In this document: positions 46,339-49,149 of the stretch, piece after piece | Layout of the letters: each line of letters begins with the position of its first letter | Numbering within the stretch: position 1 is the stretch's first letter | Assembly (NCBI GenBank): GCA_913056125.1 | Contig: CAJXNC010000002.1 | Span: forward strand, 186,001-250,000 | DNA from: an uncultured Altererythrobacter sp. | GTDB taxonomy: Bacteria; Pseudomonadota; Alphaproteobacteria; Sphingomonadales; Sphingomonadaceae | DNA: 64,000 bases | Direction: 5' to 3' | Notes under the pieces: generated by a model | The model's database searches: none | Told to the model about the DNA's origin: nothing | What the model saw: the letters and a program-made list of their open reading frames with translations, nothing else | Program-made: the position numbers and the translations under genes

Positions 46339-47301
46339 TCAGCTGCTCGATGCAGATAGTGCGGCAAGTTGCTCCTCGCTCAGTTCCAGTTTGGTGAACT
46401 CGAGCAGTTGCTCGAGCTGTTCGACCGTGCGGGCGCTGGCGATTGGGGCAGGAATACCGGGCTGCTTCACCAGCCATGCGAGCGCGATGGCGGGCAGGCT
46501 GGCGCCGGTCTCTTCCGCGACCTTGTCCATGGCCGCGAGGACGGGCGGGCCTATTTCCGCATAGTCCTTCACACGGTGCGTGCGGTTGCCCTGCTCGAAA
46601 TCTTTGGCCTCTCGGTACTTGCCAGTCAGGTAGCCCGAGGCGAGACCGAAGAAGGGCAGCATGGCGATGCCGCGCGAGGTGCAGAGCTGCTGCAAGTCCG
46701 GTGCATAGGCCTTGCGCGAGACGAGGTTGTATTCGTTCTGCAGCGCCCGGAACGGCTCCAGTCCGGCAGCATCGGCAGCTTCCAGCGCGGCGGAGAGACG
46801 CTCGGCAGAGAAGTTGGAGGCACCCAGCGAGTGGACTTTGCCCGACTTTACCGTGCCATCGAAAGCCGCGACAATATCGCCGATTGCGAGCTGTTCGTAA
46901 TCGCGATGCGCGTAATAGAGATCGAGATAATCGGTCTGCAGACGCTCGAGCGAGGCGTCGAGCGAGATCATCACTTCCGCAGGCTCGTAAAGCGTCGGAT
47001 CGCCATCTGCGCCGAAGCCCTGATGCCCGCCCTTGCGCGGCAACATGCCGGTCTTGGTGTGGATCCGCATCTCGCTTCGCACCCCGCGCGCTGCCAGCCA
47101 TTCTCCGATCACCGTCTCGGACTCGCCGCCCACATGGCCGGGGATCCAGGCCGAATAGACGTCTGCCGTATCGATCATCCGTCCGCCTGCCTCGTAAAAG
47201 GCGTCGAGGACGGCAAAGGCCTCGTCGCCCTTGGCGGTCCAGCCGAAGACATTGCCGCCAAGGACCAGCGGTATACCGGCAATTGCGGGATGATCCGTCA
47301 T
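46339..47301 (-). CDS. Aldo/keto reductase
   Basis: This 320-residue NADPH-dependent oxidoreductase has the TIM-barrel active-site tetrad Asp44, Tyr49 ([10 protein letters not shown]), Lys83 (IHTKTG) and His132 (LYYAHRD). The C-terminal cofactor loop reads [17 protein letters not shown]. It resembles the general-stress aldo/keto reductase branch (YhdN/YajO); substrate unknown. The start overlaps the ribH stop by 4 bases, so it is the last gene of ribBX-ribH-reductase, an unusual position for an aldo/keto reductase. Confidence 0.9.
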
Positions 47302-47717
47302 GCGAACTTCTCCTGGATATCGAGCAACGCCATAGCCGCTTCGGCAGCACCCGCGCCCTTGTTTCCCTGTGCCGGATCGGCGCGGTAGATCGCCTGCGCC
47401 TCGTTCTCCGTGGTGAGGATGCCATTGCCGATGGGAATACCATCCATGCTCAGCGCCATGATGCCGCGCGCGCTTTCGCCTGCGACGATTTCGAAGTGGT
47501 AGGTCTCGCCGCGGATCACCACGCCGAGCGCAACGAAGCCCTCATAGCGGCCGCTTTCCGCAGCCGTGGCGATGGCGCCGGGTAGCTCGAGCGCTCCCGG
47601 CACGGTGAGCACCTCCACCTCATGCCCTGCTGCTTCGAGCGCGCCCTTCGCGCCCGCAATCAACATGTCATTGAGGTGCCCGTAGAAGCGGGCTTCGACG
47701 ATAAGAAACTTGGCCAT
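47298..47717 (-). CDS. ribH: 6,7-dimethyl-8-ribityllumazine synthase
   Basis: RibH condenses the pyrimidine intermediate with dihydroxybutanone phosphate to lumazine, the penultimate step of riboflavin synthesis. The 139-residue protein has [54 protein letters not shown] with the catalytic His74, and [16 protein letters not shown]. Eleven bases follow the ribBX stop, so these are cotranscribed. Confidence 0.95.
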
Positions 47718-47728
47718 GATTGCGGTCC

Positions 47729-49027
47729 TTAAAGGGTAATCGGGCGTTCGCCCACAATGGAGAGGCCATAGCCTTCAAGGCCGACCAGCGAATGGCGCGT
47801 ATTGGTAAGCAGAACCATGTCGCGTACGCCCAGCTCGGCCAGGATCTGCGCGCCCACACCATAATCGCGTTGTTCGGGCGGCATGTCGTCCGCCGGCTCG
47901 GGGGGAGGGGGCGCGCCTTTCAAATCGCGGATGGCGCGGGTGGCATAGTCGGGCAGGGGACGATTGATCAGTACGACTACGCCGGTACCCTCTTCGCCGA
48001 TAATCCGCATCGCCCCGGCCAGCAGGCCCTGTCGATCCGTATTTCGGGCAAAGACGTCCTCGAAAATCGACAGGGCGTGCATGCGCACCAGAGTTGGCTT
48101 GCTGCTGTCGATATGGCCCTTGACCAGCGCCATGGTCTCGCCCTTGGTCGCCTTGTTCCAGAAGCTTATCGCGCGCCAGTCTCCACCCCATTCACTGCTG
48201 AAGCGTTCTTCCTCGCGCTTTTCGACGAGATGGTCGTGCTGGCGGCGATAGGCGATCAGGTCGCGGATCGTGCCGATCTTGAGATTGTGCTTGCGCCCGA
48301 AGCGGATCAGATCGTCGAAGCGAGCCATGGACCCGTCCTCGTTCATGATTTCGCAGATCACGCCTGCAGGGTTGAGGCCGGCAAGTCGGGAAATGTCCAC
48401 CGCGGCCTCGGTGTGACCAGCACGGACCAGCACCCCGCCTTCGCGGGCGACCAGCGGAAAAACATGGCCGGGGGAGACGATGTCGTCCGCACCCTTGGAG
48501 GCGTCGATGGCAACCGAGATGGTGCGGGCTCGGTCTGCGGCGGAGATGCCGGTGGTCACGCCCTCGCGCGCCTCGATCGCCACGGTGAATGCGGTGCGGT
48601 GGCTTGCACGATTCTTCTGCGTCATCAGGTGCAGGCCGAGCTGTTCGGTGCGCTGCTTGGTCATGGCAAGGCAGATCAGGCCGCGGCCATGCGTTGCCAT
48701 GAAATTGATCGCATCGGGGGTGGCCATTTGCGCCGGGATGATGAGGTCGCCTTCATTCTCGCGGTCTTCGTCATCGACCAGGATAAACATGCGGCCATTA
48801 CGCGCTTCGTCGATGATCTCCTCGATTCCGACAAGCACGGGGGTGTCGTCATTCTCGGTCAGGAAGCGCTCGATCTTTCCGATCGTTTCTGCCGTGGGAT
48901 TCCAGCCGGGCTCAAGGCAGTCGCGCAGCGTGTTTACGTGGAGTCCGGCGGCGCGCGCCAGGCCTGCGCGCGTCATCTTGCCGTCGCCGATGACCTCGCG
49001 AATGCGATCGATTGTTGTTTCATCCAT
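47729..49027 (-). CDS. ribB: RibBX: 3,4-dihydroxy-2-butanone-4-phosphate synthase with N-terminal helix-turn-helix and degenerate GTP cyclohydrolase II domain
   Basis: The 432-residue protein has three parts. Residues 1-60 form an XRE-like helix-turn-helix ([21 protein letters not shown], then [14 protein letters not shown]), unusual for this enzyme. Residues about 61-265 are an intact RibB domain ([47 protein letters not shown]). Residues about 275-432 resemble GTP cyclohydrolase II but lack its three zinc cysteines: [20 protein letters not shown] stands where the SQC and RCDCG motifs belong, so this part is probably not catalytic. RibB with a degenerate RibA domain is known as RibBX in Proteobacteria. 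The promoter holds a 16-bp palindrome and the mRNA appears leaderless, so autoregulation is likely. Confidence 0.92.
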
Positions 49028-49034
49028 GAAACTT

Positions 49035-49062
49035 ACAATATCACATTTAAATGTGACGGCAA
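49035..49062 (-). promoter_or_regulatory. Predicted leaderless promoter of ribBX
   Basis: On the minus strand TTGCCG (49062-49057) and TATTGT (49040-49035) are spaced by exactly 16 bases, which is the palindrome at 49041-49056. The ATG at 49027 lies 7 bases past the -10 box, so the transcript would be leaderless. Confidence 0.55.
49041..49056. promoter_or_regulatory. Palindromic operator in the ribBX promoter
   Basis: TCACATTTAAATGTGA is a perfect 16-bp palindrome. It occupies the whole spacer between the predicted -35 and -10 boxes, where a bound dimer would block RNA polymerase. The N-terminal helix-turn-helix of RibBX is the obvious candidate to bind it, but this is inference. Confidence 0.6.
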
Positions 49063-49070
49063 GGCCACCT

Positions 49071-49081
49071 TATCACATTTA
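49071..49081. promoter_or_regulatory. Second half-site for the ribBX operator
   Basis: TATCACATTTA repeats, in the same orientation, the 11 bases at 49039-49049 in and beside the palindrome, 32 bases (about three helical turns) away. It lies between the ribBX promoter and the divergent flavin reductase gene. Confidence 0.5.
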
Positions 49082-49149
49082 CGCTTGCGCGTGCTTCCTG
49101 CTTGCGCTGCCCACACTATGTCCTCATGTAGGAAAGGGATGGAGGATCA

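Follow-up and report, generated by a model that had tools for sequence, protein, structure and literature searches.

A helix-turn-helix-like domain fused to RibBX and the palindrome that fills its promoter: a riboflavin enzyme that may repress its own gene

Why should an enzyme of riboflavin biosynthesis begin with what looks like a DNA-binding domain, and why should a palindrome fill the promoter of its gene? Both questions are raised by a gene of 432 codons on the minus strand (47729..49027) of the window, the 64,000-nucleotide stretch of DNA analysed here. Its product, which we call HTH-RibBX, joins an N-terminal domain that looks like a helix-turn-helix (HTH) to a DHBP synthase (RibB) domain and a degenerate GTP cyclohydrolase II-like (RibX) domain.

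The enzymatic part of the protein is readily recognized. Residues 69-260 (48248..48823, minus strand) match PF00926 with an E-value of 1.1e-84 and score above the cut-off of TIGR00506, and this gene is the sole PF00926 match in the 3.01-Mb host genome. R89, E90, D94, H205 and E226, which we take to be the catalytic positions, are invariant in all 29 aligned sequences, and with these residues kept the RibB domain looks functional. The RibX domain, residues 272-428 (47744..48214, minus strand), matches PF00925 (E 3.3e-33) and reaches 52 bits against TIGR00505, whose cut-off is 205.85. A separate ribA elsewhere in the genome scores 195 bits with the GTP cyclohydrolase II profile, compared with 115 for the RibX domain, and an alignment of the two places the cysteines of the SECLTGD and KCDCG stretches, presumably the zinc cysteines of GTP cyclohydrolase II, in ribA and not in RibX. 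Because its fused GTP cyclohydrolase II-like domain is without these cysteines, the window protein is classed here as a RibBX with about 60 additional HTH-like residues in front. The first-pass annotation had set these residues apart from the usual RibB enzyme.

The N-terminal domain itself (residues 1-60; 48848..49027, minus strand) gives weak matches to Cro/C1-type profiles. Searched alone, it matches HTH_26 at E 0.006 and HTH_3 at E 0.03, both below the Pfam gathering thresholds; among 26 family members, the commonest matches at E ≤ 0.01 are HTH_26 (in seven), HTH_3 (in six) and HTH_31 (in six). Comparison of a predicted model with Foldseek returned mostly Cro/C1-type domains, again weakly (best E 0.17, the top row being the MuB N-terminal domain); controller proteins, namely C.BclI, C.AhdI and C.Esp1396I, also appear among the matches. 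The best match of the HTH profile to PDB sequences has an E-value of only 0.19, and residues 30-37, the expected recognition helix, are scored as helical by neither of two predicted models. Across 80 aligned members, G28, L29, H30, N32, L34, R35, W42, N43, P44, T45 and T48 are invariant. The N-terminal residues thus resemble, if weakly, a Cro/C1-type (XRE) HTH.

Upstream of the start codon, the minus strand carries a -35-like TTGCCG (49057..49062) and a -10-like TATTGT (49035..49040). The 16 bp between them are the palindrome TCACATTTAAATGTGA (49041..49056), presumed to be an operator. An 11-base second half-site, TATCACATTTA, occurs on the plus strand at 49039 and 49071, so that the outer copy (49071..49081) is offset by 32 bp from the corresponding half of the palindrome. 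The spacing filled by the palindrome, the half-site copy and the 7 nucleotides that separate TATTGT from the ATG at 49027 had all been described in the first-pass annotation, and each was recovered here. Since the window contains two perfect 16-bp dyads, such a dyad is by itself unremarkable; what is remarkable is that this one is conserved. It is the only match with three or fewer mismatches in the window, where 0.03 would be expected, and elsewhere in the 3.01-Mb genome there is only one further match, with three mismatches.

Whether HTH-RibB proteins and the palindrome occur together had been set beforehand as a test, and across genomes they do. A search of 296 genomes of the host order with the N-terminal 69 residues gave 185 matches, once each in the rows listed. 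Three matches outside the family (G013, G034 and G085) were ruled out as RibB fusions by frame position and length, which leaves, by subtraction, 182 fusion genomes, all of one family and from 42 genera. We scored each by its best TCACAT-N4-ATGTGA in the 250 bp before the start, counting mismatches over 12 positions. All 182 fusions have a site at three or fewer mismatches and 180 at two or fewer (none in 104, one in 61, two in 15 and three in 2), whereas 20 letter shuffles of each of 149 fusion upstreams gave zero or one mismatch in 0%, two in 0.7% and three in 6.1%. None of 50 RibB or RibBX genes without the HTH, taken one per genome from the 74 matching among 78 genomes searched, has a site at two or fewer mismatches; their best scores are three in 2 genes, four in 13, five in 24 and six in 11. 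The observation is far beyond chance.

A set of 80 named fusion loci, which overlaps the 296-genome sample, includes the genera Aurantiacibacter, Croceibacterium, Altererythrobacter, Novosphingobium, Qipengyuania, Porphyrobacter, Blastomonas and Croceicoccus. Among the 79 that could be evaluated, 50 sites are exact, 23 have one mismatch, five have two and one has three, so that 78 of the 79 carry a site at two or fewer mismatches, with or without a divergent flavin reductase gene. In the sample of 182, the two weak rows, at three mismatches, are L072 and L116; in L072 the chosen site overlaps the gene start, and inspection by eye shows a dyad of equal score farther upstream. G157 and G243, two genomes of the family given as 100% complete, have no RibB match at E 1e-30 and are possible riboflavin auxotrophs.

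Shared ancestry could in principle preserve any upstream sequence. Yet over the 182 fusions the CACA/TGTG core columns hold about 2 bits, a value inflated by choosing the best match in each upstream region, whereas most flanking columns hold less than 0.1, so kinship alone does not explain the conserved palindrome. The same pattern bears on the idea that the palindrome is kept merely as a promoter feature, with the HTH left over as a relic or serving in assembly. RibBX proteins without the HTH that are at least 70% alike to those of the fusions exist in relatives, so the enzyme has no need of it. However, the HTH core residues are invariant in the 80 members, no DNA upstream of the fusion gene is more conserved than the palindrome core, and promoters need no CACA/TGTG dyad between their boxes; we therefore consider this idea very improbable.

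The comparison with HTH-less genes is confounded in one respect, because an absent site may simply mean an absent promoter: in all 30 HTH-less ribBX genes with enough flank, 27 of them from the window's family, ribE lies directly upstream. At the fusion loci the arrangement is different, with ribE missing from the flanks (up to 4 kb, shorter at contig ends) of all 80 named loci. In the window, the next gene of the unit is ribH, for lumazine synthase (47298..47717, minus strand), and 75 of the 80 loci have a ribH homologue on the downstream side of the fusion. The window's ribH is overlapped by an aldo-keto-reductase-like gene (46339..47301, minus strand), named by eye, that has a homologue in 38 of the 80. 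The HTH thus accompanies a ribBX-ribH unit which stands apart from ribE and needs control of its own, an arrangement that is biologically sensible. Across the intergenic region shared with ribBX (49028-49149), a flavin reductase gene (family match to PF01613; 49150..49668, plus strand) is transcribed divergently, as is its homologue at 33 of the 80 loci. The half-site in this region is about 70 bp before the flavin reductase start, and the flavin reductase may be co-controlled.

Might the palindrome belong to a different trans-acting regulator, CRP/FNR-like or stress-related, while the HTH of RibBX contacts other DNA or none? The low scores of the HTH would be in keeping with this, as would the TGTGA/TCACA halves, which resemble CRP-type sites, but CRP sites have the order TGTGA-N6-TCACA, the reverse of the palindrome, and fusion and site are found together in 182 of 182 cases. 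A general regulator, moreover, should have many sites. Exact copies of TCACATNNNNATGTGA number 25, spread over 22 of 51 relatives, and the reversed pattern has none; 21 of the 25 are directly before HTH-RibBX, three are at the far end of the ribBX region and one is elsewhere. Nine of the 31 genomes of the window's genus are without the exact TCACATNNNNATGTGA; some of these are incomplete, and at least one (G164) has a mismatched site. With one mismatch allowed, the full palindrome is found in 26 of the 296 genomes, just upstream of the fusion gene in 23, at a distance in G025 and in two genomes without a fusion (G032 and G063), and the reversed control matches four genomes. By these counts the palindrome appears nearly private to the HTH-RibBX gene. 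Its distribution, both genome-wide and in the 51 relatives, rules out the site of a global regulator, and we regard a different regulator of any kind as quite unlikely.

In G025, G312 and G313 the far-end palindrome, at the distal end of the ribBX-ribH region, is 1.9-2.8 kb away from the site in the ribBX promoter (G025 C1:2869929; G312 C1:463758 and 466538; G313 C133:64777 and 66689; loci L039, L273, L274, L375 and L376). Such a distal palindrome is possibly a looping operator or part of another promoter. In G100 (C12:158004, L264) an exact site is followed, about 40 bp on, by an unrelated ORF of 227 aa that has, by eye, a lipoprotein-like start; this is possibly an extra target or a chance occurrence.

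Parts of the promoter layout seen in the window recur throughout the fusions. In 124 of 182 a TTG begins 5-9 bases ahead of the palindrome, against an expectation of 13.7 from shuffling. The 16-bp spacer is not universal: a TTG six bases ahead of the palindrome is as frequent as one seven bases ahead, each being seen in 51 of the 182. The ATG follows the palindrome by 9-15 nt in 137 of the 182, most sites ending 12-14 nt before it, whereas the other 45 have no in-frame ATG at a distance of 9-15 nt after the best site. Within the group of 137, the two bases after the palindrome are TA in 100, and this leading TA is the only conserved part of the -10-like box. Shine-Dalgarno-like motifs are rare in that group (13 of 137) and commoner where the ATG is at least 20 nt away (15 of 28), so the short-distance group fits leaderless mRNAs. 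Within 60 bp upstream, 115 of the 182 carry an extra half-site, ATGTGA or TCACAT, where 4.4 would be expected; it is found mostly at -20 to -23, and its offset from the corresponding half of the main site is mostly 30-33 bp. The offset of three helical turns that had been pointed out at this one locus is therefore a feature of the family.

The reading that we favor, with a probability of roughly 0.78, is that HTH-RibBX is both an enzyme and a repressor acting on the ribBX-ribH unit that encodes it, a unit that is probably leaderless. The first-pass annotation had proposed the same double role, and it remains the best reading because the palindrome co-occurs with HTH fusions and not with HTH-less genes; from this co-occurrence we infer binding and repression. 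The RibB part would make DHBP for riboflavin. RibB enzymes are homodimers, so the two N-terminal HTH domains of a RibBX dimer could read both halves of TCACAT-N4-ATGTGA. The dimer would occupy the -35/-10 spacer of its own promoter and block RNA polymerase, with more protein probably held some three helical turns upstream, at the half-site. Transcription of ribBX-ribH would fall as RibBX accumulates. The transcript appears to begin with the ATG or right beside it, which would leave no leader for an RNA switch. An operator that fills the -35/-10 spacer is usually repressive, and the position of the palindrome suggests repression, though it does not prove it.

It is also conceivable that HTH-RibBX activates, or that it operates a two-state switch, in the manner of restriction-modification controller proteins, in which protein on the upstream half-site activates and occupancy of the spacer palindrome represses, which would partly overlap with autorepression. 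The fixed upstream offset of the second half-site in 115 fusions points in this direction, as do the controller proteins among the Foldseek rows. Against this, 67 of the 182 fusions have no detectable upstream half-site, and the site that is universal is the one in the usually repressive position between the boxes; we think activation unlikely.

An enzyme that represses its own unit invites comparison with the FMN riboswitch, which controls ribB in many Gram-negative bacteria (PMC13028884). The view that no such riboswitch exists at this locus is borne out: RF00050 is not found at gathering score in the window or, under stricter filters that can lose weak matches, in the host genome, which rules out an FMN riboswitch in the ribBX leader. 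With the same stricter filters, RF00050 is present in 16 of the 296 genomes of the host order and in 0 of the 182 fusion genomes. The first-pass annotation went on to say that HTH-RibBX replaces the riboswitch. The zero among fusion genomes agrees with this, but RF00050 is also absent, under those filters, from every sampled HTH-less member of the window's family, so the phrase is too strong and only loosely supported. The riboswitch is in any case an RNA element, whereas the candidate regulator of the fusion genomes is a protein.

Autorepression by HTH-RibBX might also be extended to a ligand-gated trigger enzyme, in which the affinity for DNA changes when the RibB or RibX pocket holds FMN, riboflavin or ribulose 5-phosphate. 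Such gating would suit genomes that have no RF00050. However, the HTH-less members of the family manage equally without the riboswitch, RibX occurs also without the HTH, and nothing ties the HTH to flavin sensing; we offer this addition tentatively, as possible but not favored.

Where the fusion came from is a separate matter. Of 385 genomes of the host class, seven match the HTH profile at E 1e-6 and four of these are fusions, all in the window's family; the matches in G595, G675 and G686 are not RibB, which excludes a wider spread of the fusion in this class sample. In a tree of 63 fusions and 30 HTH-less sequences, drawn from the 79 of 182 fusions with a complete coding sequence after 16 were dropped because the cutting motif missed them, the HTH label needs five changes, at least four of them forced by supported branches, and the tree does not settle gain versus loss of the HTH. 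One HTH-less genome (G214) has two RibBX copies (C12:99055 and C18:40335), so duplication occurs and may have preceded the separation from ribE.

Stand-alone relatives of the HTH provide a further clue. When the 60 bp before the start of six such genes was scored for a dyad, shuffles matched the score in 0, 6, 18, 85, 89 and 201 of 300, and only two of the six clearly exceed shuffles. Three others were excluded from this test, L365 and L369 because their matches start inside longer frames and L371 because it looks like an ordinary XRE protein. The relatives in G595 and G013 share, by eye, copies of CGCAT-N4-ATGCG, and the one in G371 has the dyad TTTGCGCTATAGCGCAAA, whose half-site differs from that of the ribBX palindrome. 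L279, L253, L372, L373 and L374 are short HTH genes that stand alone and carry a dyad ahead of the start codon; in some this dyad follows directly, by eye, on a TTGA-type -35. The stand-alone genes are possibly a family of self-regulated mini-repressors; viral contigs gave 59 pattern matches and no HTH relatives. The dyads ahead of these genes are a weak hint that ribBX acquired an autorepressor along with its promoter and operator.

A bolder scenario, which we regard as doubtful, would combine these elements: an autorepressor with an operator-filled leaderless promoter, captured by sphingomonads and fused in frame to ribBX, would have become a metabolite-set flavin thermostat doing the work of a riboswitch, while its stand-alone relatives keep similar self-regulated promoters with other half-sites. 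If true, a metabolite at the RibB or RibX pocket would set the DNA affinity of the sole DHBP synthase of the cell.

Our findings touch on how bacteria control vitamin B2, a subject discussed mostly in terms of the FMN riboswitch. In one lineage, with Novosphingobium, Aurantiacibacter and Qipengyuania among its members, control seems to lie with the enzyme itself; this would be a conserved and directly testable case of self-regulation by a biosynthetic enzyme. This reading also offers a possible role for the RibX domain, so far unexplained, and it bears on the engineering of riboflavin output in fusion-carrying bacteria.

Among the matches listed in the open literature there is no report of an HTH-fused RibB. 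Protein regulators of a riboflavin gene are described in Wolbachia, where wBmxR1 and wBmxR2 bind the promoter of ribA, the gene of a bifunctional riboflavin enzyme, and are reported to act positively on a ribA reporter; they are separate proteins and, unlike HTH-RibBX, are not fused to an enzyme (PMC3518464). As an enzyme, the window protein is most like RibBX of A. baumannii (6mnz), the best PDB fold match at 42% identity, which has the same RibB and degenerate GTP cyclohydrolase II-like domains, although its chain of 336 residues would be too short for an extra HTH. The ribBX genes of Shewanella and Aeromonas encode the same two-domain kind of DHBP synthase. In Aeromonas, ribBX is in an operon with ribD, ribE and ribH (PMC10012899). 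The ribBX of the window, by comparison, is detached from ribE and has a site of its own. The archaeal riboflavin kinase-regulator RbkR is likewise a riboflavin-pathway enzyme fused to a DNA-binding domain; it differs in both enzyme and organism group from HTH-RibBX. For the architecture proposed here there are two further parallels, the first being the DNA methyltransferase M.SsoII, whose regulatory N-terminal region we take to be an HTH. Its residues 1-71 are reported to regulate transcription, and it binds a regulatory site in its own promoter region, competing with RNA polymerase (PMC3978073). M.SsoII serves restriction-modification and not vitamin biosynthesis, and HTH-RibBX is not a member of its family. 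The second is PutA, a trifunctional proline utilisation enzyme described as an autogenous repressor with a fused N-terminal DNA-binding domain (PMC5293562). PutA differs in its ribbon-helix-helix domain, its catabolic pathway and its substrate-driven switch, and HTH-RibBX does not belong to that family either. By analogy, HTH-RibBX would most likely work like M.SsoII and PutA, as a variant of the already known self-regulating enzymes.
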